Both the position numbers and the translations under genes were made by a program. From positions 1 through 24,667 of IMG/VR virus record IMGVR_UViG_3300027720_000030: a DNA stretch of 24,667 bases; one strand, 5' to 3'. This DNA is from a virus. Position 1 is the first letter of the stretch, and the number at the start of each line of letters is the position of its first letter. Shown piece by piece: positions 1-12,817 of the stretch. Below the pieces are notes generated by a model. That model was not told where the DNA came from and ran no database searches. It saw nothing but the letters and a program-made list of their open reading frames with translations.

Positions 1-1
1 C

Positions 2-13
2 TTGGCTGAGTGG
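2..13 (-). repeat. Early-region spacer motif, copy 1
   Basis: This is the core CCACTCAGCCAA read on the minus strand. It lies 12 bases after the stop of the 51-residue gene and precedes whatever gene continues beyond the window. It belongs to a family of nine copies, all in the first 4.7 kb. Confidence 0.7.
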
Positions 14-25
14 GATCCAAACAGG

Positions 26-181
26 TTAGGGAGATTCCCCACTGAATGATATATCCCAGAGGAAGCATTCCTCCAGGTAATCGCCCAGTTGGGCTAGGGC
101 CTTTGCCCGTCTGCCGTCGTCCACCTCGATGTAGTAGCGGATGCGATCCACGAGGGTGGCGTTCTCCGAAAGCTTAGGCAT
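26..181 (-). CDS. Small acidic hypothetical protein (51 aa)
   Basis: This is a 51-residue ORF that follows the RNA polymerase gene on the minus strand. The start is taken as the ATG at 181 (MPKLSENATL), because anything longer in this frame runs back into the polymerase coding sequence. The product is hydrophilic and predicted helical in the middle (VDDGRRAKALAQLGDYLEE), and ends SFSGESP. There is no signal peptide and no membrane segment. No Shine-Dalgarno sequence is visible; a copy of the CCACTNNNCCAA spacer motif lies 11 bases upstream of the start. The family is not recognised. Small proteins at this position in T7-like phages are often host-takeover factors, but nothing in this sequence shows that. 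Confidence 0.6.
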   Translation of the reverse strand: MPKLSENATLVDRIRYYIEVDDGRRAKALAQLGDYLEECFLWDISFSGESP

Positions 182-192
182 GGTTGTCTGAG

Positions 193-204
193 TTGGTGGA
201 GTGG
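193..204 (-). repeat. Early-region spacer motif, copy 2
   Basis: This is the core CCACTCCACCAA on the minus strand. It begins two bases after the RNA polymerase stop codon and ends 11 bases before the ATG of the 51-residue gene. Confidence 0.7.
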
Positions 205-206
205 GA

Positions 207-2549
207 TCAACAGAAGAAATAGGGGGAATCCGAGACCGTGCCTGGATCGAAGTCGTAGACCATCGGCGGATCGCTCTCCGCCCCAATGCTTTCGGCCAGG
301 TCATGGAGGGGGCTGTGCTCGGTAAAGCACTGGGCATAGGCCGAGCGCACCGCCGCATTGAGGTCATCCATGTGGTTGGCCAGACAGAGCACCGAGTCGT
401 GGATCACGGTGAACGGCGAGGCGAACTCCTTCAGACCAAGCGCCAAAATCGAAGCATCGAGGCTGTGGATCAGGTTCGGTGCCCCCGCATTGGCGTGATG
501 CTTGAGGTCCGGCTGTCCCTCAGAGACGCCGATGTTGAGGTCCACCCGACCCATCAGGTGGGCCTGGATCCGCTCGGTCTCGATGTGCCTGAGGTCCTGC
601 TTGACGTTGAAGCCGCTAGGCGTCGTCCACTCGATGTGGGGTAAGCCCCGTTTGATGGCCGCCTTGATCTCCTTATTGAGCCAATCCATCACCTGCATGG
701 GACCGGGAACGATCTCCCGCATGGCCTCACGGGTCAGACTCACGATCAAAGTGAGCTGCTCTGGAGTGATCTCCAGGCCACGCTTTTTGACCAGGGCCTC
801 GCGGATGTAGCTGCGATTAGAGAGGGGCTTGGCGTTGTAGGGGATGGTCATCACCACCCGTTTGACATCGGAGCGGGTCAACTCGATGCCCCACTCCTTT
901 GGCAGGTTGGGATTCACCGCATGGGCCACCGCCTTGTAGGCATCACTGGGACGCTCACCAGGCGAGACATTCACGAGGGCTGCAGTCGAGCGGTCATGGC
1001 TGAGGCCCGCGAGCACCTGAAGGCCTGAGCACGTGGCATCGACGGCCGCCGGGAGGTGGGTATGGCTGCGGGTCTTAGCAACCACCACGGCATGGAACTC
1101 CTCGCAAGCTGCCAGAAAAAGGAAGGGCTCCTCCACCGATTCCCACTGGCTTAGTTGGCCTAGTGGATCTGTAGCGATCCGAGAGAACAGGCTCTCATTG
1201 CTGAGGGCCCACTCCTGCCGCTCCTCCATTGATGCCTTATCCAGGCCGGCCGTGGTGGCCAGCTGAAAGCGCAGCCAGTACAGGCCACGCTCCGTTAGAG
1301 GCTCACCATCAGCAAACTGGATCAGGCTCTTGGCGAAGCCGGTGTCCTGAGGCGTCAGGAACGAGGGGATGGGGTAAACCCGACCTCTGTAATCGAACGA
1401 CCACGGCAGGTAGTACCGCTCCTCTTTGGCGAACTTCCTAGCCAAACTCAAGGTGAGCTTGGTGCGGATGCTGCGCTTGAGTGAGGTGCTGTTGAAGTCA
1501 TAGACCGCAGCCGCCTCTTTCCTGTAGTTGAACCGGGCCTCCTTATTGGTGGCGATGTCGTGGGGTTTGAGAGGTAGCTCACGTCGATCTTCTGGGATGA
1601 ACTTGGCACCCTCGATCTTGTAGCTGTCCTCCTCAAGGCGATTCGCCACCTCCAAGATGAAGGGGTTGATCCGATAGGCCACCTTCTGCAGGTGGTTGAG
1701 AAAAGCAAGGGGTGTTTCCCCCTGTAGACGGGCGTGACCAAAAGTCCTGATCAGCTTGTTACCCCGACGCACCTCGTTGGTGAGGTAGCCACCGGCTTGG
1801 TGGTTGGTCCAGTCGTTGGGCTCGACCACCATCGGCAAGTTGAGGGGAGCAAACAGCTCAGCCCGCTCCATCAGCCCGGCAATGATGTCCAGCATCTGTG
1901 GGGTGGGCCGCAGGTGGCTTGAACTGCGCCGCCCTGAGAACTTCAGCTGCTTATGCCACCAACCAGTGATCTGACAGGCAGCCTCAGCAAAGGTGGCGCC
2001 GATCTTGACCCGCGAGATGCGTGGCCAAGCAGTCCAATGAATGCCTTTCTCTCGGAAACGGCGGGTGGCGTCATAGTCCCGGTAATGGAGGCCCTTGCCC
2101 TGGTGGTGGCTGTTGGCAATCCAGCCCACAAGCTCGGGATCCTTCTCGTTGAAGTAACGCCATTTGGCCTCCTGCTCTACAGCTGTGCCCACCCTGTCGA
2201 TCACGTTGTTGACCAGATCGGCGCGATCCTTGGGATCAGTGCAGACATCGAACAAGGTCTTGAGGGTGATCATGGCCAGCACCTCAGGATCGATGCCCAA
2301 GGTGTACTGAACCAAAGGAGCCAGAGCTGGGCCAGCACCTCCACGTAGGAGGCGGTTGGTCCGAAGCCGGGTGATCTCTTTGGCTACTGCGGGAATGGCC
2401 TCTTTAAGCATCCGCTGGGCGTAGACCGTGCTGGATGCGTAGGCATTCCCCTCAGCCTTTTTGGTGTTGTCTCTGAGCTTCTGGATGCCGTCATGGACGG
2501 CTTGGGTCTCCAGCTTGATCTGTCGTTCGATCTGCTGCGGTGTTGCCAT
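207..2549 (-). CDS. T7-like single-subunit DNA-directed RNA polymerase
   Basis: This phage-type RNA polymerase transcribes phage genes from phage promoters and needs no host sigma factor. The 780 residues (T7 has 883) show the family motifs in order. There is an N-terminal helical region (1-60), the FDYRGRVYP block at 385-393, palm motif A AAVDATCSG with Asp504, motif B VKRVVMTIPY with Lys563 and Tyr571, the HSLDAS block near 695, and motif C IHDS with Asp718. All catalytic residues expected from T7 are present. The protein ends SPYFFC rather than T7's FAFA; a YFF-type tail is closer to what I recall of mitochondrial polymerases. The ATG at 2549 starts MATPQQIERQ, and a spacer motif lies 21 bases upstream. 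It sits at the end of the early small-gene run, as in T7. Replication genes are expected beyond the left edge. Confidence 0.97.
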   Translation of the reverse strand: MATPQQIERQIKLETQAVHDGIQKLRDNTKKAEGNAYASSTVYAQRMLKEAIPAVAKEITRLRTNRLLRGGAGPALAPLVQYTLGIDPEVLAMITLKTLFDVCTDPKDRADLVNNVIDRVGTAVEQEAKWRYFNEKDPELVGWIANSHHQGKGLHYRDYDATRRFREKGIHWTAWPRISRVKIGATFAEAACQITGWWHKQLKFSGRRSSSHLRPTPQMLDIIAGLMERAELFAPLNLPMVVEPNDWTNHQAGGYLTNEVRRGNKLIRTFGHARLQGETPLAFLNHLQKVAYRINPFILEVANRLEEDSYKIEGAKFIPEDRRELPLKPHDIATNKEARFNYRKEAAAVYDFNSTSLKRSIRTKLTLSLARKFAKEERYYLPWSFDYRGRVYPIPSFLTPQDTGFAKSLIQFADGEPLTERGLYWLRFQLATTAGLDKASMEERQEWALSNESLFSRIATDPLGQLSQWESVEEPFLFLAACEEFHAVVVAKTRSHTHLPAAVDATCSGLQVLAGLSHDRSTAALVNVSPGERPSDAYKAVAHAVNPNLPKEWGIELTRSDVKRVVMTIPYNAKPLSNRSYIREALVKKRGLEITPEQLTLIVSLTREAMREIVPGPMQVMDWLNKEIKAAIKRGLPHIEWTTPSGFNVKQDLRHIETERIQAHLMGRVDLNIGVSEGQPDLKHHANAGAPNLIHSLDASILALGLKEFASPFTVIHDSVLCLANHMDDLNAAVRSAYAQCFTEHSPLHDLAESIGAESDPPMVYDFDPGTVSDSPYFFC
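1719..1743 (-). repeat. Polymerase-internal copy of a 25-bp repeat
   Basis: The plus-strand 19-mer CCCCTGTAGACGGGCGTGA, one variable base, then CAAAA. It matches 6989-7013 at 24 of 25 positions. Here it encodes polymerase residues around FGHARLQG (270-277). The other copy is non-coding, directly after the large terminase stop. Confidence 0.85.
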
Positions 2550-2570
2550 AGGCCGGTATCACGAGGGTAA

Positions 2571-2582
2571 TTGGTTGAGTGG
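2571..2582 (-). repeat. Early-region spacer motif, copy 3
   Basis: This is the core CCACTCAACCAA on the minus strand, 9 bases after the stop of the 60-residue gene and 21 bases before the RNA polymerase start codon. It has the same core as copies 4 and 8. Confidence 0.75.
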
Positions 2583-2591
2583 CAACGGGAA

Positions 2592-2774
2592 CTACCAATC
2601 AAAATCCTGTGATTCCCGCCGGATAGAAACGATGGACTCCGGGTCGTCCTGGATTGACTGGACCAGCTCGACTGCCTGCAGCCGGGCCTCGTATGCGTCG
2701 TCTGCATAGCAGCAGAACTCGCGCAGGAGATCGGCCTGGTCCTTGTAGCGAACGGAATAGGGTGCGATGGCCAT
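2592..2774 (-). CDS. Small acidic hypothetical protein upstream of RNA polymerase (60 aa)
   Basis: This 60-residue ORF starts at MAIAPYSVRY and ends SQDFDW. The centre looks helical and acidic (DQADLLREFCCYADDAYEARLQAVELVQS), with two adjacent cysteines. There is no signal peptide, membrane segment or recognised domain. It fits neatly between its neighbours on the coding strand and its stop is followed after 9 bases by a spacer motif. Unlike most neighbours it has no clear copy of that motif before its own start; the 47 bases upstream (2775-2821) hold nothing I can name. The function is unknown. Confidence 0.6.
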   Translation of the reverse strand: MAIAPYSVRYKDQADLLREFCCYADDAYEARLQAVELVQSIQDDPESIVSIRRESQDFDW

Positions 2775-2821
2775 AGTTCGGATGTACTAGAGGATGGTAC
2801 GGCAGGTAATGCGGTTTTGCA

Positions 2822-2971
2822 TTAGCGGTACAGCAGCTTGCTGCGCTCTAATGCAGCCTTCGCATAGCGCTCGAACTGGGCTAGGGCGGCCAAGGCCGCT
2901 GTGCTAACGGGCTGCCCATCCCGAAGCCGGGCAGCGGTGACGGCGGGGCTGTACTCAGTGACGAAAGACAT
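2822..2971 (-). CDS. Small hypothetical protein (49 aa)
   Basis: This short minus-strand ORF encodes 49 residues, starting MSFVTEYSPAV and ending ERSKLLYR. It is Ala-rich and probably forms a C-terminal helix (STAALAALAQFERYAKAALE). The start is chosen because the ATG at 2971 lies 17 bases after a spacer motif, the same arrangement as its neighbours, and the stop of the preceding gene lies just beyond the motif. No known domain is recognised. Its support is positional: the regular stop, motif, start pattern of this region. Confidence 0.55.
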   Translation of the reverse strand: MSFVTEYSPAVTAARLRDGQPVSTAALAALAQFERYAKAALERSKLLYR

Positions 2972-2988
2972 GGGAATTCACAAAGCAG

Positions 2989-3000
2989 TTGGTTGAGTGG
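2989..3000 (-). repeat. Early-region spacer motif, copy 4
   Basis: This is the core CCACTCAACCAA on the minus strand. It starts three bases after the stop of one 49-residue gene and lies 17 bases before the ATG of the next. Confidence 0.75.
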
Positions 3001-3003
3001 AAG

Positions 3004-3153
3004 TCAGACGGAAGGGAAGCAGTGGGTCACCTTGCGGATCTGGTAGCCCAGGGTTCCGAGGTCAACCACCGCTTGAACAGCGGAGGTGCTGATCACGGGC
3101 AGGGTGGTCTCTTGACCGTCCAGGTCCTTGAAGGTGATGCGGTAGCAGGTCAT
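3004..3153 (-). CDS. Small hypothetical protein with beta-rich pattern (49 aa)
   Basis: This ORF encodes 49 residues, starting MTCYRITFKDLDGQ and ending THCFPSV. The alternating pattern (YRITFKDLDGQETTLPVIS, then AVQAVVDLGTLGYQIRKVT) suggests a strand-strand-helix-strand fold. That pattern is common in small phage and cyanobacterial proteins but is not diagnostic. There is no signal peptide or membrane segment. The ATG at 3153 lies 15 bases after a spacer motif, and the TGA stop is three bases before the next one. The family is not recognised. Confidence 0.6.
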   Translation of the reverse strand: MTCYRITFKDLDGQETTLPVISTSAVQAVVDLGTLGYQIRKVTHCFPSV

Positions 3154-3168
3154 GGTGGGTGATTGTGG

Positions 3169-3180
3169 TTGGTGTAGTGG
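3169..3180 (-). repeat. Early-region spacer motif, copy 5
   Basis: This is the core CCACTACACCAA on the minus strand, 10 bases after the stop of the 63-residue membrane protein gene and 15 bases before the next ATG. Its core is identical to copy 6. Confidence 0.75.
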
Positions 3181-3190
3181 CAGTGATGAT

Positions 3191-3382
3191 TCAGGTCAGG
3201 GACCAGCGCTTGGCTGTTGATCTGGAACAGCCCAGGCGATCAGCGATTCCGGTCCAGGTCTGACCATTACCGCGCCAACGCTGGATGCGGGTATGACGAG
3301 ATTCGGTGGCCCACAGGAGGACCACAACAGGCAGGAGCAGCAGGACAGCGGCCCATGCCAAAAGGCAAGTGGTAGTAGCCAT
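3191..3382 (-). CDS. Small membrane protein with a helix-turn-helix-like tail (63 aa)
   Basis: This 63-residue ORF starts at MATTTCLLAW. Residues 5-25 (TCLLAWAAVLLLLPVVVLLW) form one clear hydrophobic segment. They are followed by a basic stretch (RHTRIQRWRGNG) and the C-terminal sequence TWTGIADRLGCSRSTAKRW, which reads like the recognition helices of a resolvase-type helix-turn-helix. If that is right, the product would be a DNA-binding tail tethered to the membrane, or the hydrophobic part could be a short export signal. The start lies only 6 bases after a spacer motif, the closest spacing in the set. The membrane segment is well supported; the helix-turn-helix is an inference from a short match. 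Confidence 0.6.
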   Translation of the reverse strand: MATTTCLLAWAAVLLLLPVVVLLWATESRHTRIQRWRGNGQTWTGIADRLGCSRSTAKRWSLT

Positions 3383-3388
3383 TGATGC

Positions 3389-3400
3389 TTGGTGTAGTGG
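3389..3400 (-). repeat. Early-region spacer motif, copy 6
   Basis: This is the core CCACTACACCAA on the minus strand, 6 bases before the ATG of the 63-residue membrane protein gene. Confidence 0.75.
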
Positions 3401-3409
3401 AAATGAATC

Positions 3410-3425
3410 GGCCCGTTAAAGGGCC
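3410..3425 (-). other. Small GC-rich hairpin
   Basis: On the minus strand this reads GGCCC-TTTAAC-GGGCC, a 5-bp perfect stem with a 6-base loop, 9 bases upstream of spacer motif copy 6. No U-tract follows, so it is not a standard terminator. Confidence 0.4.
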
Positions 3426-3582
3426 AGACCAACAGCTGGATTTGATCCACAGCCCACGGTCTAGTGGCTGGCTGCTGGTGGCTTCACGCTTACGTCGGAT
3501 GGAATCCTGCTGGCCTCTCGCATCAGGCGGTGAATCGGATCGGTTGTCTGGTCCGATCTCGATGCAACAAAGATGCCACGGA

Positions 3583-3594
3583 TTGGCTGAGTGG
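3583..3594 (-). repeat. Early-region spacer motif, copy 7 (orphan)
   Basis: This is the core CCACTCAGCCAA on the minus strand, identical to copy 1. It is the only copy in the window with no convincing gene after it: the nearest start, a GTG three bases on, gives just 18 codons. Confidence 0.65.
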
Positions 3595-3631
3595 CAATGG
3601 TGCAGTGGACAGCTGCAGATCCGCACACTCC

Positions 3632-3649
3632 TGCTGCATCGGCGCAGCA
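3632..3649. other. Hairpin in the presumed divergent control region
   Basis: TGCTGC-ATCGGC-GCAGCA: a perfect 6-bp stem with a 6-base loop. It lies between the rightward regulator gene and the leftward early genes. It may be an operator or part of a 5' leader. Confidence 0.35.
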
Positions 3650-3692
3650 AATGTGCATAGCACTGCAAAGCTGTGCCGCTGATTGGCCTTAA

Positions 3693-3929
3693 ATGGGGTG
3701 GGCCAGCGCTGCTACCAACAGCCTGACCCGTGACCAACTCACTATCCATGAGCTGATGACACCGTTGTACCCAGCCCAGGCTGAGGCGCTAGCCCCATGT
3801 CTGCGTAAACCCGCCCGGATCACGATCACCGTCAACTGGGCCCTACGCCAGAAGCTCCAGGACCGCGCGGACTATGAGGGCCGCAGCCTGTCCAACCTCC
3901 TCTCCTATCTGCTGGAGGTGGGCAGCTAA
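3693..3929 (+). CDS. Ribbon-helix-helix (CopG/Arc-type) DNA-binding regulator on the opposite strand
   Basis: This is the only convincing plus-strand gene. The C-terminal part has the ribbon-helix-helix layout. A beta strand ARITITVNW (about 41-49) is followed by helix A, ALRQKLQDRADYEG, and helix B, RSLSNLLSYLLEVG. The GRSLSNL turn is typical of CopG-like proteins, a type common in cyanobacteria. Such proteins dimerise and bind short repeated operators through the strand; many are repressors or antitoxins. No toxin partner is visible next to it. The start is uncertain: the longest form begins at 3693 (78 aa), but an in-frame ATG at 3756 (57 aa, MTPLYPAQAE) leaves the whole domain intact. The gene converges on a terminator at 3941-3968 and is divergent from the leftward RNA polymerase group, so it may control early transcription. 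Confidence 0.8.
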   Translation: MGWASAATNSLTRDQLTIHELMTPLYPAQAEALAPCLRKPARITITVNWALRQKLQDRADYEGRSLSNLLSYLLEVGS

Positions 3930-3940
3930 TCCAACCCATG

Positions 3941-3968
3941 AAAAAACCCCCCGCCGTAGCGAGGGGTT
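3941..3968 (-). terminator. Rho-independent terminator, strongest leftward
   Basis: The stem AACCCC/GGGGTT extends inward by CG/CG past one mismatch. On the minus strand it is followed by six U residues. It lies between two convergent genes, ending the leftward secreted-peptide transcript before the plus-strand regulator. Its rightward tail (TTCTTAA) is weaker, so it could also partly stop the regulator transcript. Confidence 0.8.
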
Positions 3969-3993
3969 CTTAATCGTTCACGAGGCCTTAGGG

Positions 3994-4125
3994 CTAGTAA
4001 CACTGCGTCGCGCAGTTGCCGTTGTAGCAAGTGGTGTTGCAGTTCTGCTGGGCTTGGGCATCGACAGGGCCATCACCCCAAGAGCCGAGGGCAACAAGGG
4101 CGAGGGCAATCAGGAAGCGTTTCAT
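3994..4125 (-). CDS. Secreted cysteine-rich mini-protein (43 aa)
   Basis: This short ORF has a textbook signal peptide: basic start MKRF, hydrophobic core LIALALVALGSW, and a probable cleavage after a small residue in DGPVDAQA. The remaining mature peptide is about 20 residues, QQNCNTTCYNGNCATQCY, with four cysteines (29, 33, 38, 42) spaced C-x3-C-x4-C-x3-C. It would be exported to the periplasm and probably hold two disulfides, or bind metal. The ATG at 4125 lies 11 bases after a spacer motif, and the TAG stop is followed by a strong terminator. No family is recognised. The signal peptide and cysteine pattern are visible directly; any role, such as acting on the envelope or on superinfecting phage, is speculation. 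Confidence 0.65.
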   Translation of the reverse strand: MKRFLIALALVALGSWGDGPVDAQAQQNCNTTCYNGNCATQCY

Positions 4126-4136
4126 GGCGTAGCTAG

Positions 4137-4148
4137 TTGGTTGAGTGG
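4137..4148 (-). repeat. Early-region spacer motif, copy 8
   Basis: This is the core CCACTCAACCAA on the minus strand, 10 bases after the stop of the 81-residue gene and 11 bases before the ATG of the secreted mini-protein. Confidence 0.75.
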
Positions 4149-4158
4149 AATTGATAGA

Positions 4159-4404
4159 TCAAAAAGAAGGGATCGGTGGATCGAAGATCAAAAGGTCCTC
4201 GATATCCGCCTCGTCCCGTAGATCCAGGGTGAAGCGCCGCAGGGTGTCGGTATCCAGGTAGCTGATCAGCGACTTTGCATACAGCTCCCAATCGAGAGCC
4301 TCTGCGATGTCGTGCTGCATCTCCCGGATGGAGCCAGGAAATGAGGTCAGCTCTGGCTGGTAGTCAGATGGCACGTCGAAGGTGGCGAAGTCGGTGGTGG
4401 TCAT
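4159..4404 (-). CDS. Acidic hypothetical protein (81 aa)
   Basis: This 81-residue ORF starts MTTTDFATFDVP and ends FDPPIPSF. It is strongly acidic, with helical central stretches (REMQHDIAEALDWELYAKSLISYL and TLRRFTLDLRDEADIEDLL). The high negative charge and small size resemble the DNA-mimic or host-inhibitor proteins that phages often encode early, but no specific family is recognised. The sequence before its start (CATCCACCATCAACAGCC) is only a degenerate version of the spacer motif. A true motif follows its stop. It has no signal peptide and no membrane segment. Confidence 0.65.
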   Translation of the reverse strand: MTTTDFATFDVPSDYQPELTSFPGSIREMQHDIAEALDWELYAKSLISYLDTDTLRRFTLDLRDEADIEDLLIFDPPIPSF

Positions 4405-4424
4405 GGCTGTTGATGGTGGATGAG

Positions 4425-4604
4425 TCAGGAGTTAGCAGCGATGAAGCGGTCAATCGCTTCAGTGCGTATCCATTCCTTGCCTTGGTCAGGAGCTTTCAAT
4501 GGGATGCCGTGCTCGATGCAGAACAGGACGAAGCGGCTGTAGTCGAGGCCCTTCTGCTTAAGCAGGATCTGGGCGTGGGTGTGGTAGGTGACTGGGGTGG
4601 TCAT
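4425..4604 (-). CDS. Small hypothetical protein, possibly excisionase-like (59 aa)
   Basis: The start is taken as the ATG at 4604 (MTTPVTYHTHAQIL), because longer versions of the frame run into the neighbouring gene, and because AAGGA lies 8-12 bases upstream as a fair ribosome site. The 59 residues have the pattern helix (AQILLKQKGLDYSRFVLFCIEHG), short loop, then WIRTEAIDRFIAANS. That is reminiscent of small excisionase/MerR-like winged helices, where a 'xxRTxAIDRFI' end is frequent. This is a weak match and the role is unproven. It sits between two small acidic genes on the same strand. Confidence 0.6.
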   Translation of the reverse strand: MTTPVTYHTHAQILLKQKGLDYSRFVLFCIEHGIPLKAPDQGKEWIRTEAIDRFIAANS

Positions 4605-4609
4605 GAGCT

Positions 4610-4639
4610 GGATCCTTGGATCCCCATCATGATGGATCC
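4610..4639. repeat. Three GGATCC sites with a palindrome
   Basis: GGATCC occurs at 4610-4615, 4618-4623 and 4634-4639. The last two flank the perfect palindrome CCATCATGATGG, so the stretch can fold on itself. It lies directly upstream of the 59-residue gene and overlaps its probable ribosome site, so it could affect translation. Confidence 0.45.
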
Positions 4640-4890
4640 TCAGTTGGCTTAGTGGGATTGAGTTGTGACACTTCGTCACACGTCACACCAGCCCGCTCAC
4701 AGGCATCCCGCAGCAGCTCGTTCCAGCGCTCCTCTGTCCAGTCGTTGATGCCCAGGCTGATGGCCTGTGGATCGGTCTCATCCCACTCGATGATCAGGTC
4801 GCCGTTCTCGTCCTCGGTGCAGGTCAACGACAGCACCTCGGCGGTGATCTCTTCGATGGGTACGCGGGCAATCTCTAGTTGTTCGTCCAT
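4627..4890 (-). CDS. Acidic hypothetical protein (87 aa)
   Basis: This 87-residue ORF starts MDEQLEIARVP and ends PTKPTEDPS. It is highly acidic (for example TCTEDENGDLIIEWDETDPQ) and has a tryptophan-bearing helix (NDWTEERWNELLRDACERAG). It has no signal or membrane segment and no known family. Its start overlaps the 3' end of the upstream secreted-protein gene by 16 bases, so the two are probably translated together. Spacer motif copy 9 lies inside its last codons (the NPTKPT region). The upstream sequence holds only a broken motif (TTGGTGT and AGTG separated by extra bases, 4896-4911, plus-strand reading). Confidence 0.65.
   Translation of the reverse strand: MDEQLEIARVPIEEITAEVLSLTCTEDENGDLIIEWDETDPQAISLGINDWTEERWNELLRDACERAGVTCDEVSQLNPTKPTEDPS
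4644..4655 (-). repeat. Early-region spacer motif, copy 9 (inside a gene end)
   Basis: This is the core CCACTAAGCCAA on the minus strand. Unlike the other copies it lies within coding sequence, in the C-terminal codons of the 87-residue gene, and 39 bases before the next accepted start. Confidence 0.65.
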
Positions 4891-5030
4891 AACAGTTGGT
4901 GTTCACGAGTGTTGGTAATTGTGGATCTGTTGCTGTTACCCGCTTCGACAGCCGTCACCGCTCCGAGTAATGAAAGCATGGCAATCGGCAGTAACAACAA
5001 TGGTGAGGATGTGATCTGTTTCCTATTCAT
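4875..5030 (-). CDS. Small secreted protein, overlapping both neighbours (51 aa)
   Basis: This 51-residue ORF overlaps the stop of the upstream gene by 8 bases (ATGAATAG) and the start of the downstream gene by 16, a sign of coupled translation. It starts MNRKQITSSP, then has a hydrophobic core LLLLPIAMLSLLGAVT, then a probable signal peptidase site after AVEA. That leaves a mature peptide of about 21 residues (GNSNRSTITNTREHQLLWT and two Asn). It has no cysteine and no lipobox. The signal peptide is clear from composition; the overlap pattern argues that the frame is used. The family is not recognised. Together with the Cys-rich mini-protein at 3994-4125 it suggests that several early products are exported. 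Confidence 0.6.
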   Translation of the reverse strand: MNRKQITSSPLLLLPIAMLSLLGAVTAVEAGNSNRSTITNTREHQLLWTNN

Positions 5031-5253
5031 CTAGGCATTGCAGTAGGGATAGCTCTTCCCGTAGATCAGGATCGAGAATCCATTCCTCCTCGATGGACCA
5101 AAGGTTGCAGGCAAGGTCCTGGGCTTCAAGGTCCTCAGCCAGGTCAGCGCCCTCTGGGATCTGATCAGCAATCAAGCTCATCCGCTGATACATCTCAGCA
5201 ACAGAGCGCTTGAGTATGTCGGGCATACCCTTGGGCTTACGCTTCCTAGTCAT
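5023..5253 (-). CDS. Acidic hypothetical protein with a basic N-terminus (76 aa)
   Basis: This 76-residue ORF starts MTRKRKPKGMPDIL and ends LSLLQCLDE. A strongly basic start is followed by an acidic, helical body (PEGADLAEDLEAQDLACNLWSIEEEWILDPDLREELSLLQ). The basic-then-acidic layout can fit a small nucleic-acid or protein-binding factor, but no family is recognised. It is the first gene after a roughly 300-base non-coding stretch, so it probably starts a transcription unit. Its stop overlaps the start of the secreted 51-residue protein. Confidence 0.65.
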   Translation of the reverse strand: MTRKRKPKGMPDILKRSVAEMYQRMSLIADQIPEGADLAEDLEAQDLACNLWSIEEEWILDPDLREELSLLQCLDE

Positions 5254-5310
5254 AACTTCAGCTTATAGTTAGTGTATCTTTAATAGTCCTGGCTTATTGC
5301 AACAGATGCG
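5254..5310 (-). promoter_or_regulatory. Possible sigma70-type promoter for the early small-gene group
   Basis: Upstream of the 76-residue gene the minus strand has TTGCAA at 5302-5297, a weak GATACA-type -10 at 5278-5273, and TATAAG at 5267-5262. The stretch is AT-rich next to GC-rich surroundings, and it lies between a hairpin terminator and the first gene of a run. The matches are partial, so this is tentative. Confidence 0.3.
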
Positions 5311-5409
5311 ACGAGGTTTACAGGACCTAGACAGGCAGGGCCCGCGATCCCTCTCATTTGCAGCTGTTGTTGAGAATGAAGGGCCTCGCTAGATCCCGTA
5401 TCTAATGAG

Positions 5410-5429
5410 AAACCCTGTTGCAGCAGGGG
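5410..5429 (-). terminator. Probable terminator after the thyX group
   Basis: The minus strand reads CCCTG-CTGCAA-CAGGG followed by TTTCTCATT. The stem is short (5 bp) and the U-tract is broken, so termination may be partial. It is placed to end leftward transcripts from thyX before the next promoter. Confidence 0.5.
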
Positions 5430-5466
5430 ATTTGGGCGAAGGCAGGGCCCCACCCCTCTCGATTTT

Positions 5467-5490
5467 GGGCGGGAGGGGGGTACCGGGGGG
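5467..5490 (+). other. Putative G-quadruplex sequence
   Basis: The plus strand has four G-runs: GGG-C-GGG-A-GGGGGG-TACC-GGGGGG. This meets the usual G3+N1-7 rule. The plus strand is the template for leftward transcription here. Confidence 0.5.
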
Positions 5491-5554
5491 CCAGCCGCCG
5501 CCGCGCTCTCACGTACTGGCTTCAGAGATTTTTGGCAAAATACTCCAGACCTGC

Positions 5555-5719
5555 TTATAGCGAGCGATCTGTATAGGGAGGGTGTTGCCGATACTCGTCT
5601 CTAAGCTCCTTTAAGGCCGTTCTGATGTTCTGGGCCATGAATCTATTGCCAGCCGCCTCTGCAGCCTTTACAGCTGCTTCTAGGCGGCTCCTACGGCCTT
5701 CATAGGTTAGTTCCGTCAT
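5555..5719 (-). CDS. Small hypothetical protein (54 aa)
   Basis: This 54-residue ORF starts at MTELTYEGRRSRLEAAV. The start at 5719 is preferred over an upstream start at 5803 because the longer form would overlap the preceding gene by about 100 bases, whereas this one overlaps its stop by 20. The product is helical and basic, Ala/Arg-rich (RSRLEAAVKAAEAAGNRF, then AQNIRTALKELRDEYRQHP). No membrane segment or recognised domain is present. It is the last gene of the thyX group, before the structured non-coding stretch. Confidence 0.6.
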   Translation of the reverse strand: MTELTYEGRRSRLEAAVKAAEAAGNRFMAQNIRTALKELRDEYRQHPPYTDRSL

Positions 5720-6008
5720 CGTTGATGTTGTTAGGGGTAAGGGTATAGCGGGCTTGGATCCGAATCTCATCGAAAAAGTCATCACCAGTGGAGGAGAACA
5801 CACCCTCTGTCAAAGGCGATGGGGTCACTTCTTCCTTCTCGTAATCCCTAATGGCTGTATCAACAGCTGTGGTGACCTTGAGATTGATGTACTTCTCTTG
5901 AAGCCACACCAGGAATCCATAGAGAAGATGGGCCAGGGGTTTAGGAAAGCCCCTCTGTATGGATCTGTAAGAGCGTTTAAACTCAGGCAGGACCAATCGA
6001 TCAGCCAT
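5700..6008 (-). CDS. Hypothetical protein coupled to thyX (102 aa)
   Basis: This 102-residue ORF starts MADRLVLPEFKRSYRSIQ and ends NINDDGTNL. Its start overlaps the stop of thyX by 8 bases (ATGGCTGA), so the two are probably co-translated. The N-terminal half is basic and aromatic (PKPLAHLLYGFLVWLQEKYINLK), the C-terminal half acidic. The hydrophobic part is too broken to call a membrane segment. No family is recognised. Because of the tight linkage it could act with the thymidylate synthase in nucleotide supply, but that is only an inference from position. Confidence 0.65.
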   Translation of the reverse strand: MADRLVLPEFKRSYRSIQRGFPKPLAHLLYGFLVWLQEKYINLKVTTAVDTAIRDYEKEEVTPSPLTEGVFSSTGDDFFDEIRIQARYTLTPNNINDDGTNL

Positions 6009-6648
6009 CGGACCACATCGCCTTAGAGACGCTTGGAAGGACCTCAGACAGGATCTGCTTGGCCTGGAGAGCTATCTGTCGATGCTCCAACTGGGTGCCA
6101 TTGCCTGAACGGAGTTCGATGTAATGGAGCCAGGAGCGGACATTACCAGCCATATAGAGGCGGGTAGGGGTAGCTAGGGGCAGGACCTCACGGGCACACT
6201 CCTTAGCCACTCCAACACTCAACAGCTCCTCATAGAGCAAACGGCTCTGGTCGAAGAGGACCTGGGTTTTGGTTTGGAAGTTAGTGACAAGTTCTTCATC
6301 AAGATCATCGACACTGTTCTGTCGGTTTCTCAAGTCCTGCCGTCTAAATGCAGGAATTACCGGGTATCCAATGCTGGAAATGTCGGCATACCGCTGAGAG
6401 AACTCTTGGAAGCTGAAGCTTCGATGCCTAAGAATCTGTGCGGCTATAGAGCGGGTGGTGTTGATCTCTAGAACTACATGAGCCAGTTCAAATGGAGACC
6501 AGTGGTTATGCTTGATTAGGTATCGAATCAGTTTCTCACTGTCAGGATTGTCCTGGTTGTCAGGGTTCGAGACCCGAGCACAGTAAGCAATAAGCTCTTC
6601 TGCTTTAGGAGTGACTGATACGAGCGATACGTTAGGTGTAAGTGGCAT
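6001..6648 (-). CDS. thyX: Flavin-dependent thymidylate synthase
   Basis: ThyX methylates dUMP to dTMP using methylene-tetrahydrofolate, FAD and NADPH, and supplies thymidylate for phage DNA synthesis. The 215 residues match the usual family length (about 210-230). The signature RHR-x7-S is at 74-84 (RHRSFSFQEFS), the flavin/substrate-binding motif. Other expected blocks are PFELAHVVLEINTTRS before it and CAREVLPLATPTRLYMAGNVRSW near 151-173. QLEHRQIA near 186 occupies the position of the conserved C-terminal arginine block. The ATG at 6648 is only a few bases from an array of short repeats. It is the first gene after the presumed genome-end region and heads a small group with the 102- and 54-residue genes. 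thyX is common in cyanophages. Confidence 0.96.
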   Translation of the reverse strand: MPLTPNVSLVSVTPKAEELIAYCARVSNPDNQDNPDSEKLIRYLIKHNHWSPFELAHVVLEINTTRSIAAQILRHRSFSFQEFSQRYADISSIGYPVIPAFRRQDLRNRQNSVDDLDEELVTNFQTKTQVLFDQSRLLYEELLSVGVAKECAREVLPLATPTRLYMAGNVRSWLHYIELRSGNGTQLEHRQIALQAKQILSEVLPSVSKAMWSDG

Positions 6649-6652
6649 ACGT

Positions 6653-6700
6653 CGGTTATAACGGTTATAGCCGGCTACAGCCGGTTACCAGGCGGTTGAA
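6653..6700. repeat. Operator-like short repeats abutting thyX
   Basis: The plus strand reads CGGTTATAA, CGGTTATAG, CCGGCTACAG, CCGGTTACCA, then GGCGGTTGAA: about five units at a 9-10 base period. Within it are a near-palindrome TATAACGGTTATA and a perfect inverted repeat CCGGCT-AC-AGCCGG at 6671-6684. It ends 4 bases from the thyX start codon. Helical-turn spacing of short repeats is typical of ribbon-helix-helix operators. Confidence 0.6.
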
Positions 6701-6800
6701 ATATATAGTTGATAGATATCATTGATGATGTACTACAAGCTAATATAAAAGCGATTGATAGTGTTGATCCTCAACTAATCAATAAGTTATAACTAGTATT
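6701..6800 (-). promoter_or_regulatory. AT-rich early promoter region upstream of thyX
   Basis: This stretch is far more AT-rich than its surroundings. One sigma70-like pair on the minus strand is TTGATT (6782-6777) with TATCAA (6760-6755), spacer 16; a further TATATT lies at 6747-6742. In a T7-like phage the early genes are first transcribed by the host polymerase from promoters at the left genome end, which fits this position. The exact promoter is not determined. Confidence 0.5.
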
Positions 6801-6827
6801 AGAAGACGGCCTGCGGCCTGTACACTA

Positions 6828-6915
6828 TTTGTGTTCCTTAAAGGGCCGCCTGACACCCCTTAAAGGCAGTGTTGCTAACTCACTGCTCGGTCGATTGTTT
6901 GTGTTGGTTAAAGGG
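6828..6915. repeat. Two copies of an 18-bp repeat 70 bp apart
   Basis: The plus strand has TTTGTGTTCCTTAAAGGG at 6828-6845 and TTTGTGTTGGTTAAAGGG at 6898-6915, 16 of 18 identical, starting exactly 70 bases apart. A further CCTTAAAGG lies at 6858-6866. They lie in the terminase-thyX gap and could be phage promoters or packaging-end signals. Confidence 0.6.
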
Positions 6916-6930
6916 TGGTTACAAAGGGGA

Positions 6931-6954
6931 AGACCCCCTGTTGAAGGGGGGTCT
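6931..6954 (-). terminator. Second hairpin after the large terminase
   Basis: A perfect 8-bp stem AGACCCCC/GGGGGTCT encloses an 8-base loop. On the minus strand it is followed by TCCCCTTTG, a poor U-tract, so it may be a weak terminator or an RNA-processing or end signal. It has the same dimensions as the hairpin at 6972-6995. Confidence 0.5.
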
Positions 6955-6971
6955 AATTACCGCATATCCAC

Positions 6972-6995
6972 ACAGGGGAGCACCACTTCCCCTGT
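6972..6995 (-). terminator. First hairpin after the large terminase
   Basis: A perfect 8-bp stem ACAGGGGA/TCCCCTGT encloses an 8-base loop, starting 18 bases after the terminase stop codon. No U-tract follows. One arm is part of the 25-bp repeat shared with the RNA polymerase gene. Confidence 0.55.
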
Positions 6996-7013
6996 AGACG
7001 GGCGTGATCAAAA
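6989..7013 (-). repeat. Non-coding copy of the polymerase repeat
   Basis: This copy is immediately downstream of the large terminase stop codon (7014-7016). It shares 24 of 25 positions with 1719-1743 in the RNA polymerase gene, in the same orientation. It overlaps one arm of the hairpin at 6972-6995. Confidence 0.85.
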
Positions 7014-8756
7014 CTAGTTACGACTGGGAGTCCAGTCGTAGACAGGCTTTGAGGACGCTTTGATGCCACGAAAGGACAAGCCCAGTACCAGAGCGTCGGT
7101 GGCTAGGTGGGGGGTGTTTTCAAAGGCATCCATCATGGCGTTCCACTCTTCGTGTTTCCGCATGGCTTGGGCCTTGTGGGCGCTTTGAGCAAGGGCATCA
7201 ATGAACCACTGAACGCCTTGACTGAGGGCATCGATACGGTCGTCATGCTTGATGGCGCCCCGCTCCCGGCACATGCGGGACATCTGGTAACCGAGCATGT
7301 ACTCCAGCCGTTTCTCCGGGGGAGCGTCGGGGTTGGACTTGTAATCGTACTCGAATACTTTAGGGTCAATTATGAGTTTGTGTTGATTCATAACTGGCTC
7401 TAATGTATCAATGATGCGCTCCTCTTTGCGGACTGTTGCTCGAACTTCTTCGATGTCCACGGCAGCTTGCATCTGGATGCAGTGGCGTTTAAAGAGTTCG
7501 CAGATCATGCCATCACCAAAGTTAGATTCGATCAGGAGCTTTGATGCCTTATAGCGTTTAGCCATGCCAACGATGCTGGAGAGGGTGTCGTCGGAGTAGC
7601 CGTCTTTGAAGGCACGGAGATCACGGACGAAGACATAGCCATTAGCTTGGCTAAGGACAACGGCCACTGTTTCATCACTACCGCGTCCTGACGGGTCAAC
7701 CGATACAATCGTTTCATCGAAAGGTACGATTCCTTCGTCAATGAACATGGGTCCATAGAAGCGATCTCCAGGTAGGCCCACAGCAGCGAGTTCCTTAAGG
7801 CAATAGCGAGGATCGCTTGACCAAGCATATCTTTCAGCACACTCTTCTCCGATTGGTGTAACGATGAGATCGGCAAACTTAAGGGGGAACTTCTCAGCGT
7901 CAGACAGGCTGGTGTCGAGCATGAACTGAAGCATGAAGTTCGAGCGGCCCATTGCTGCTTCTCGCTCGATTAGATCAAAGTCGGAGAAGCGGTCATCTGT
8001 GGGCTCCCAAGGCTCAGCCCCTTGATCTAGATCAGCCACCAGCTGGGGCGCTAGAAGGCCTTCGTACTTACCGATGTCCCTGGGATACCTAGCGGGCCAA
8101 ACAAAGGGCTTGTAGGACCTCTCAGCGAGCTTACGGTAGATAGTCCAGGTGGACTGTGGTGTGCCTAAGAAGAGGATGCGGGAAGTCTCATCTGGAGTAA
8201 GGATGGATTCAGCTTCTGTGACAAGTTGAAGGAGCTTCTCCCGTTGCATGTCAGTGGCCGAGTTACCAGGGACCTCCACGTCGTCGAAGATCATCAGGTG
8301 GGCACGGGAGCCTGTCATCTGACCTGTGACCCCTACGGACTTAACAGAGGGGGCCTGGTGAGGCTTAGCGGGGCCTACGTCAAAGGAGATGCGCGACCAA
8401 CGCTGGTCATCATTCTTAGGGCCTAAGTGGCCCAGCCAAGTAATCTCTAGGATAAGCTTCTGACAGAAGATAGAGAAGTTATCGGCCCGTTCTTTAGAAG
8501 CGGAGATCACCATGATCTTCTTATCGGGATCCTTATAAAGCGTCCAGAGCACAAAGGCTGCAGTGATCCAGCTCTTACCCACACCCCGGAAGGCGGAGAT
8601 CTGAAGCCGCTTGGGGCCATGCTGGAGATACTCAGCGATGGCCAGCTGAGCCCGTGTTGGCTTGGGTAGCCCTAGTTCCCGCCAAACCAGGGTAAGAAAG
8701 ACGCGGAAGTCTTCCCGTATCTTTGCATCTAGTTCTTGTAAATTAAGGCTAGCCAT
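7014..8756 (-). CDS. terL: Terminase large subunit (DNA-packaging ATPase and nuclease)
   Basis: This is the gp19-like motor that cuts concatemeric DNA and pumps it into the prohead. The 580 residues show a Walker A variant AFRGVGKS (55-62), Walker B LMIFDD (154-159), and a coupling block FLGTPQST near 197. The RNase-H-like nuclease domain has acidic residues in VSVDPSGRGSDE (Asp354), ESNFGDGM (Asp415) and KHDDRIDALS (505-511). All parts of a working enzyme are present, and the length is close to T7 gp19. The ATG at 8756 begins MASLNLQELD. A terminator directly upstream separates it from the small genes before it, so it probably has its own promoter or is reached by read-through. The stop is followed at once by the 25-bp repeat and the tandem hairpins. 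Confidence 0.97.
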   Translation of the reverse strand: MASLNLQELDAKIREDFRVFLTLVWRELGLPKPTRAQLAIAEYLQHGPKRLQISAFRGVGKSWITAAFVLWTLYKDPDKKIMVISASKERADNFSIFCQKLILEITWLGHLGPKNDDQRWSRISFDVGPAKPHQAPSVKSVGVTGQMTGSRAHLMIFDDVEVPGNSATDMQREKLLQLVTEAESILTPDETSRILFLGTPQSTWTIYRKLAERSYKPFVWPARYPRDIGKYEGLLAPQLVADLDQGAEPWEPTDDRFSDFDLIEREAAMGRSNFMLQFMLDTSLSDAEKFPLKFADLIVTPIGEECAERYAWSSDPRYCLKELAAVGLPGDRFYGPMFIDEGIVPFDETIVSVDPSGRGSDETVAVVLSQANGYVFVRDLRAFKDGYSDDTLSSIVGMAKRYKASKLLIESNFGDGMICELFKRHCIQMQAAVDIEEVRATVRKEERIIDTLEPVMNQHKLIIDPKVFEYDYKSNPDAPPEKRLEYMLGYQMSRMCRERGAIKHDDRIDALSQGVQWFIDALAQSAHKAQAMRKHEEWNAMMDAFENTPHLATDALVLGLSFRGIKASSKPVYDWTPSRN

Positions 8757-11182: not shown

Positions 11183-12817
11183 TTACCAGCTAATAACACG
11201 AACATATCCTCCACCACCCCGGCCGCCAGCGCCAGAGACAAAACCATTCTCAGCGGCGCCGCCGCCGCCACCGCCACCACCTGGGAATGCACCATTGCCT
11301 CCGCTACCACCATGTGAACCAGGAGCTGAGCCTCCGCTGCCACCACCGTCACCGTAAACAGTTGCTGCGGGAGCACTGAAGCCAGCTGTACCGGCTGCAC
11401 CGCCGGAGCCCTGGCTACCAGTACTGAAGTTAACTGACCAGCCGGAGAATCCTTTACCTCCAGGTGCGCCAGCGCCGCCGACGTTAGCCGTACTTAAGCC
11501 AGTCCCCCCTGCGCCACCTCCTGCACCATAACCTCCAACACCACCACTCGCCCCGGTAGAAACGTTACCAACCCCGCCGGCCCCTCTAAAATTAACTACG
11601 TGTGTTGAGTTAGCCCAGTTCCCAGTTGGAGTAGCACCAGCTGCTGTGGTTGTGGTGCCACCTTGTCCATTACTAAAGGGGAAGTATGTATACATACGTG
11701 AGCCAAATGATGAAGTGCCGCCGAATCCCCCAACATTTCCTGTTGTACTGATACTAGTTTGGCCAAGGCCTCCAGCACCTCCTGCGCCGACAGTAATGGT
11801 TTCAGTTTCTGAAAGAGCTGAAGCGACAAAATAGTGAGAGAACAGAGGTGCGCCAGCGCCACCGCCACCGCCAGATCTGGAAATAGCAGAAATACCAGTC
11901 CTCCCTGATCCGCCGCCGCCGCCGCCGCCCATAATCTCTACATAAACTACTGTCGCTCCCGCAGGCTTTGTCCAGGTGCCGTTGCTTGTAAATTCTTGAA
12001 AATTAGCAGCTGAACCACCTCCACCACCTCCACCAGTAGCACCTGTGGCCCCTTGTGGAATATTGAAGTTAAGTACAGCCGCTGAACTGCTACCGACGTT
12101 TGTAACAGCAGCAGCAGAACCAGCAGCACCAGTTGTTACGGTGCCAACGCTAACGGTTGCAGCCGTACCATTAGTGCCGTTGGTTCCATTAGTACCAGCA
12201 GCTCCGGTTGCACCCTTGATGTTGGCGATAATGCTATAGGTTCCACTTGCCCTTTGATACACATCGCTGTTGGCTGTATTCAGGTATAGATCGCCATCTA
12301 CGCCTGTACTGTTTGACGGGACGCCGCTACCTGTTCTCCAGATTGATCCGTTTGTTCCGGCAGCTCCGGTTGGTCCGGTGGCTCCAGCTGACCCAGTGGT
12401 TCCAGCTGACCCGGTAGCTCCAGTTGGTCCCACCAGGCTTGTTGCAGTACCCCAAGCCCCTGCAGTTTTAGGGCCGTAGATAGTGTTTAACGCCGTATTG
12501 ATGTAAAAATCGCCGTTAACTCCAAGACCGACACTTGGAGCACCTGAACCGTTTAAGACTGTCTTGCCGTCAACGCCAGCAGGACCTGTAGCACCGGTTG
12601 GACCTGCAGGGCCTTGAGGACCAGTAGGACCTGTAGCACCGGTTGGACCTGCAGGGCCTTGAGGACCAGTAGGACCAGAACCCCCGCTAAATGAAGCGTC
12701 AACCCATTCGGTATCGTAGTTTAGATCGCTAGCCTTACGGAGAACCTGATTTTCTAAACCTCCAGGGGCTACTCCTGGACTTGAATCCCCCTCAGGGGCA
12801 GTCACATACCTAGCCAT
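11183..12817 (-). CDS. Collagen-like, glycine-rich tail adhesin
   Basis: This 544-residue protein starts MARYVTAPEGDSSPG. Collagen-like Gly-X-Y runs occur at about 43-80, 125-155 and 200-218, and would form trimeric stalks. Between them are repeated modules of the type NGDFYINTALNTIYG and DGDLYLNTANSDVYQ, a known phage-fibre spacer. From about 265 the sequence is glycine-rich, beginning near TWTKPAGATVVYVEIMG and continuing with many G-runs and aromatic bits. This resembles glycine-rich receptor-binding tips of phage adhesins. It lies in the fibre region downstream of the LTDTQLRA protein (TAATG-type overlap, TAATGG). It is likely a host-recognition protein. The DNA carries a perfect 45-bp tandem duplication. 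Confidence 0.85.
   Translation of the reverse strand: MARYVTAPEGDSSPGVAPGGLENQVLRKASDLNYDTEWVDASFSGGSGPTGPQGPAGPTGATGPTGPQGPAGPTGATGPAGVDGKTVLNGSGAPSVGLGVNGDFYINTALNTIYGPKTAGAWGTATSLVGPTGATGSAGTTGSAGATGPTGAAGTNGSIWRTGSGVPSNSTGVDGDLYLNTANSDVYQRASGTYSIIANIKGATGAAGTNGTNGTNGTAATVSVGTVTTGAAGSAAAVTNVGSSSAAVLNFNIPQGATGATGGGGGGGSAANFQEFTSNGTWTKPAGATVVYVEIMGGGGGGGSGRTGISAISRSGGGGGAGAPLFSHYFVASALSETETITVGAGGAGGLGQTSISTTGNVGGFGGTSSFGSRMYTYFPFSNGQGGTTTTAAGATPTGNWANSTHVVNFRGAGGVGNVSTGASGGVGGYGAGGGAGGTGLSTANVGGAGAPGGKGFSGWSVNFSTGSQGSGGAAGTAGFSAPAATVYGDGGGSGGSAPGSHGGSGGNGAFPGGGGGGGGAAENGFVSGAGGRGGGGYVRVISW
12581..12676 (-). repeat. Perfect 45-bp tandem repeat in the collagen-like gene
   Basis: Two identical 45-base units lie at 12581-12625 and 12626-12670, followed by six more matching bases. 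Each encodes 15 collagen-type residues, so copy-number change keeps the frame. Confidence 0.9.

Follow-up and report, generated by a model that had tools for sequence, protein, structure and literature searches.

Two copies of a 25-bp element lie in a linear virus record of 24,667 bases, a metagenomic contig (IMG/VR record IMGVR_UViG_3300027720_000030; "the window" means this whole stretch), which is a fragment of a cyanopodovirus. One copy is inside the gene for the phage's single-subunit RNA polymerase (RNAP) and the other is in the spacer that follows the terminase gene. From sequence comparisons, we are highly confident that these copies are two promoters of the phage's own RNAP, oriented like the genes; we will call the intragenic copy P1 and the spacer copy P2. 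The two copies change in concert between phages, in step with the residues with which the polymerase reads DNA. We also think it probable that the RNAP, the promoter in its coding sequence, and the spacer copy form a three-part locked system that has repeatedly switched specificity as a unit, even between polymerases that are 95% identical, and that a few residues, including two (209 for base -5 and 177 for base -4) that lie outside the specificity loop, reveal the base preference.

The minus strand is the sense strand for nearly all of the genes in the window, and both copies are read on it: P1 (1719-1743) is CCCCTGTAGACGGGCGTGACCAAAA and P2 (6989-7013) is CCCCTGTAGACGGGCGTGATCAAAA, and the element can be summarized as TTTTG(G/A)TCACGCCCGTCTACAGGGG. 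An earlier reading of this DNA, made from its letters alone (the sequence-only reading), had reported that the copies agree at 24 of 25 positions, in the same orientation and with an exact core of 19 bases, which direct reading of the sequence confirms. It had also argued that the match is not due to chance, and indeed 19 nt is the longest exact same-strand repeat in the window between sites at least 500 nt apart, while Markov-1 shuffles (n = 200) gave a mean of 13.9 nt and never exceeded 16 nt, so the match is far beyond chance. There are no copies elsewhere in the window: a search that allowed up to 3 mismatches found no third one (shuffles give 0.02 such sites). P1 is coding, as had been claimed. 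It lies at nucleotide 806 of the RNAP gene (207-2549, minus strand) and corresponds to T-FGHARLQG (codons 269-277), where FGHARLQG is a variable segment of the protein. P2 directly follows the stop codon of the gene for the large subunit of the terminase (7014-8756, minus strand), and its last bases do form one arm of a hairpin (6972-6995, minus strand), also as described earlier.

Two promoters of the RNA polymerase of Synechococcus phage Syn5 were reportedly described by Zhu et al. in 2013. The Syn5 enzyme recognizes a 15-bp promoter, ATTGGGCACCCGTAA, that was mapped in vitro and is present as two promoters per genome (PMC3950665, PMC6834552). In the Syn5 genome, we found this sequence exactly twice: at codon 270 (nucleotide 809) of the RNAP gene and immediately past the stop codon of the terminase. 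The two copies in the window occupy these same two places, in the same orientation, and align base for base with the Syn5 promoter, which puts the likely start sites at the A of ACAGGGG, that is, at 1725 for P1 and at 6995 for P2. By this homology, the recognition region of P1 (-17 to -1) would be 1742-1726 on the minus strand. Syn5 and the window also share a C-rich core, a G at -4, and a 5' hairpin with the loop AGTGGTGC after the spacer copy. They differ from -11 to -5, which is GGCACCC in Syn5 and CACGCCC in the window, and the RNAPs are far diverged (36-37% identical) though the terminases are 80% identical. As far as we could find, the Syn5 promoters are the only mapped late promoters in this group of viruses.

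Similar arrangements are known further afield. Klebsiella phage KP34 has a weak promoter inside its RNAP gene, which has been noted as similar to Syn5's, but it uses an unrelated strong promoter as well (PMC6834552); the comparison here is at the level of the gene. T7 has a polymerase of the same family, with the same logic of residues matched to bases and with a promoter near the right end of the genome, but the T7 enzyme has about 15 promoters (PMC3950665), as compared to two in the window's group, one of which is in coding sequence. The many-promoter layout of T7 is not what we see in this group: complete relatives contain one or two sites (most have two) within 2 mismatches of their gene copy, and no other close copies were found on either strand of those genomes.

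An exact scan of IMG/VR for the 19-mer had no matches, because the core differs between phages. Instead, the relatives' versions were found within each genome, by comparing its RNAP gene with the spacer after its terminase. For example, S-CBP1 and S-SRP01 have a common word at the same two places, and it differs from the window's. When this was first done for a set of loci containing both genes, RNAP codons 266-275 held the best ungapped match, with few exceptions. The sequence-only reading had suggested looking for the pair in related phages, and a promoter-like element occupies both places in all 50 of the related loci in which both places are present, so that P2 has an equivalent in every locus that holds the end of the terminase; for P1, an aligned element was collected from 170 RNAP genes. 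In an unbiased scan of the whole RNAP gene against the whole spacer, the best match fell at RNAP residues 262-278 in 47 of the 50. On average, 18.4 of 20 positions were identical between the gene and spacer copies of the same genome, versus 12.5 of 20 for mismatched genomes, and none of 10,000 permutations gave a mean above 13.5. The apparent exceptions in the first set of loci (S-B28, 7B11-B, and the locus L015) were mostly resolved by direct search: L015 has a spacer copy at the end of the terminase, while in S-B28 and 7B11-B the match in the spacer is shorter and there is an extra promoter-like site after thyX (at 42338 on the minus strand in S-B28, with an equivalent in 7B11-B). This extra copy is possibly a left-end type of promoter.

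These results bear on the suggestion that the repeat is debris from recombination or copy choice, to which one could add assembly error or chance. The 25-bp match in the window does extend a little past the bases that must agree, and gene conversion from one copy to the other, if it happens now and then, could contribute to their likeness. But 50 loci, drawn from many lineages and assembled independently, have the element at these two places, with a sequence that is different each time, and the repeat lengths in shuffled windows exclude chance. Because the same two places are kept in about 50 phages, recombination debris is excluded, and debris, error, or chance as a sole explanation is already refuted; we give it essentially no weight.

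One comparison is with a relative (L006) whose RNAP is 95% identical to the window's and whose terminase is 98% identical. L006 has a different core, TTTGGTGTGCTACGTCTACAGGGG, and has it in both places. Across the 50 genomes, the two copies of a genome are always the same at -9, -5, and -4 and differ in one case at -8, while differences are frequent at -13, +2, and +3. Meanwhile, residues 271-274, which the core encodes, rank in the 81st to 94th percentile of the protein for variability, and the structure prediction places them in a loop of low confidence. Because the copies stay alike while these residues vary, it appears that at codon 270 the DNA is kept rather than the peptide. We considered whether the sequence at codon 270 might instead be kept for the protein's sake only, with the spacer copy as a decoy or regulatory target of some other phage protein. 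The protein does conserve LQG or IQG, whose codons are on the +1 side, which would fit this idea. But it does not fit with the variability of residues 271-274, nor with a core whose DNA is kept identical to a non-coding copy, nor with coupled residues (described next) that are the RNAP's own promoter-reading elements, and we consider it extremely improbable.

The window and L006 polymerases differ at 39 residues, of which four (662, 668, 670, and 672) are in the specificity loop. The segment that contains them aligns with the specificity loop of T7 RNAP, and in a structure model built from 62 sequences it forms a beta hairpin (657-662 and 670-676); the hairpin as a whole, residues 657-676, is encoded at 522-581 on the minus strand, and its residues 660, 662, 668, and 670 are coupled to promoter bases. 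The predicted fold matches T7 RNAP, including its promoter complex (1cez). To look at coupling across the family, the 170 RNAPs with their intragenic elements were reduced to 131 by removing near-duplicates, and corrected mutual information was computed for 566 columns by 14 promoter positions. The top pairs were 670/-8, 209/-5, 177/-4, 662/-10, 662/-11, 670/-7, and 668/-9. (Peaks at residues 64, 313, and 314 were dropped as artefacts because those columns are present in only 5-8% of the sequences.) Residue 209, along with residue 204, which is also coupled to -5, is in a hairpin (residues 198-215; 1905-1958, minus strand) that is equivalent to the intercalating beta hairpin of T7, and the codon of residue 177 is at 2019-2021 on the minus strand.

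The same residues emerged when we asked which residue best accounts for each base across 59 independent (non-overlapping) pairs of sister sequences: 662 for -10 and -11, 668 for -9 (p = 2e-10), 670 for -8 (p = 2e-9), 209 for -5 (p = 6e-13), and 177 for -4 (p = 3e-6). They also predict the bases of sequences that were held out along with all relatives above 80% identity. Among 337 variable columns, each of the five ranked first for its own base, with accuracies from 0.78 to 0.93 (0.85 for 662/-10, 0.93 for 668/-9, 0.86 for 670/-8, 0.89 for 209/-5, and 0.92 for 177/-4). Some of the pairings are without exception: T at residue 209 goes with C (76/76) and R or K with T (36/36), R at 177 goes with G (76/76), and E or D at 670 goes with G (20/20). 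Others are nearly so, such as R at 668 with C (84/89) and Q at 670 with T (28/31). The window's RNAP obeys the majority pairing (Q662 with A at -10, R668 with C at -9, D670 with G at -8, and R177 with G at -4). This table of residues and bases also holds for the copy in the non-coding spacer; therefore, the coupling is not an effect of coding. In T7 RNAP, N748 contacts -10 and -11, R756 contacts -9, and Q758 contacts -8 (PMC5937735), and the T7 pairings of R with C at -9 and of Q with T at -8 recur here.

Several points weigh against our interpretation. Our Syn5 promoter comes from later papers (PMC3950665, PMC6834552) and from the sequence match in the Syn5 genome. An ungapped alignment with T7 RNAP places residues 668 and 670 at T7 754 and 756 and not at 756 and 758; we take this two-residue difference in register to be due to a shorter loop or an alignment error. 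In the sister-pair test, residues such as 662 and 670 are associated with neighboring bases as well, so the assignments of single residues are not fully separable. The use of the gene copy as the query in the spacer search inflates the self scores somewhat, an effect that the cross-match control and the unbiased whole-gene scan deal with. Finally, the window is about half of a typical 45-kb genome, and there may be additional promoter copies in the part of the genome beyond the 24.7-kb contig.

The sequence-only reading had presumed that the hairpin at P2 marks the end of the genome, and this is probably wrong. The records for Syn5 and P-SSP7 have direct terminal repeats of 237 and 206 bp, and in both of them a stretch of about 1.4 kb, which includes thyX (or talC), separates the corresponding element from the right end. 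By analogy, the window's genome end is probably about 1.4 kb downstream of P2 and not at the hairpin. This also bears on whether the repeat is an end or packaging signal, such as a concatemer junction or a cut site, that happens to lie in the polymerase gene too. The spacer copy is near the terminase and in the right-end region, and the right-end promoter of T7 takes part in replication and packaging. But in Syn5 and P-SSP7 the element does not lie at the mapped DNA end, and its distance from that end makes a packaging cut at this site unlikely; nor would such a signal explain the coupling of bases to RNAP residues. So we consider this idea very improbable.

A different alternative is that P2 is chiefly a gene for a small RNA, with a promoter, a 5'-terminal hairpin with a conserved loop, and a T-tailed hairpin that ends the transcript at about 65-110 nt; such an RNA would have its first bases in common with the polymerase mRNA from P1. 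The first hairpin (6972-6995, ACAGGGGA-AGUGGUGC-UCCCCUGU) has its 5' arm beginning at the likely start of P2 and has a fixed loop; 98.8% of its pair cells are kept, four of its eight pairs show compensatory changes, and its covariation score of 0.506 compares to 0.238 in shuffles (0/500). In other clades there is a hairpin whose loop is around AAGGGTGGAC. A second, terminator-like hairpin (AGACCCCCCTTCAACAGGGGGTCT; 6921-6954, minus strand), about 41-64 nt after the likely P2 start, has a T-rich tail, and a comparable one was found in 35 of the 50 loci, but by a permissive scan without a shuffle control. Against a terminated small RNA, the T7 terminator hairpin did not stop the Syn5 RNAP in vitro (PMC3950665), an Rfam search of the spacer had no family matches, and the copy inside the RNAP gene is left unexplained. 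We think that a small-RNA gene is an unlikely main purpose for P2, and it would be an addition to the promoters rather than a substitute for them. Just upstream of P2, the final stretch of the terminase gene contains another terminator-like hairpin (7019-7040, minus strand), but shuffled sequences have on average about as many of these sites as the region does, so this one may be due to chance. A scan of the spacer for sigma-70 promoters found nothing above chance.

The sequence-only reading was right to consider that a functional signal may be present in both the gene and the spacer, and right to want the pair looked for in relatives, but debris, a packaging or end signal, and an RNA that mimics polymerase mRNA are not the best fit. 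The mimic is superfluous because both copies fit promoters of the phage RNAP in their sequence, position, number, and coupling to the polymerase. P2 may still give rise to a short RNA, but this would follow from its being a promoter and would not compete with that explanation.

If P1 and P2 are promoters, then the host RNAP would first transcribe the early genes, including the RNAP gene. The phage RNAP would then start at P1 within its own gene (probably at 1725) and transcribe the replication and virion genes. Because P1 is inside the RNAP gene, these late transcripts would lack the first third of the reading frame and could not encode more of the full-length enzyme, which we suspect is a built-in brake that prevents runaway self-amplification. 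Transcripts from P2 (probably from 6995) would have the stable hairpin at their 5' end and may continue across thyX as far as the right end, which would make P2 comparable to the right-end promoter of T7.

The promoter arrangement was already known from Syn5, while the family-wide concerted evolution and the readable recognition code appear to be unreported: we found no report of the family-wide arrangement, the concerted change, or a residue-to-base code for cyanophages in the literature that we searched, which left out most subscription journals. With this result, a repeat that had no explanation can be annotated as a pair of promoters, and the late promoters of a very abundant group of viruses can be located by a simple rule. 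It is also a large natural experiment in how a polymerase and its promoters can change specificity jointly when one of the promoters is within the polymerase gene. The residue-to-base code could be tested directly in vitro, and if the three-part system does switch as a unit, then the cyanopodoviruses would provide tens of natural, mutually selective polymerase-promoter pairs.

As for the genes, the 780-residue RNAP is recognizable as T7-like by sequence (PF00940, E = 2e-62) as well as by its predicted fold, and the first clear gene downstream of P2 is thyX (6001-6648, minus strand; PF02511, E = 5e-48). The window's polymerase is 48% identical to that of Synechococcus phage DSL-LC07, and other cyanophage RNAPs are closer to it than Syn5's is, which together with the Syn5-like terminase points to mosaic ancestry. 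About nine copies of a motif near TCCACTCAACCAAC lie on the minus strand of 1-4656 (for example at 2988-3001 and 4136-4149), several of them just upstream of small early genes. There were 13 matches to this motif as compared to 2.2 expected; it is enriched in L006 too, but not in the early region of Syn5. It could be an early promoter, an operator, or a translation element. A small CopG/RHH-like open reading frame (ORF) at 3693-3929 is on the plus strand, opposite to nearly all of the other genes, and is followed by a terminator-like inverted repeat. Finally, a 544-residue ORF (11183-12817) contains collagen-like repeats with a 9-nt period at 12015-12700.

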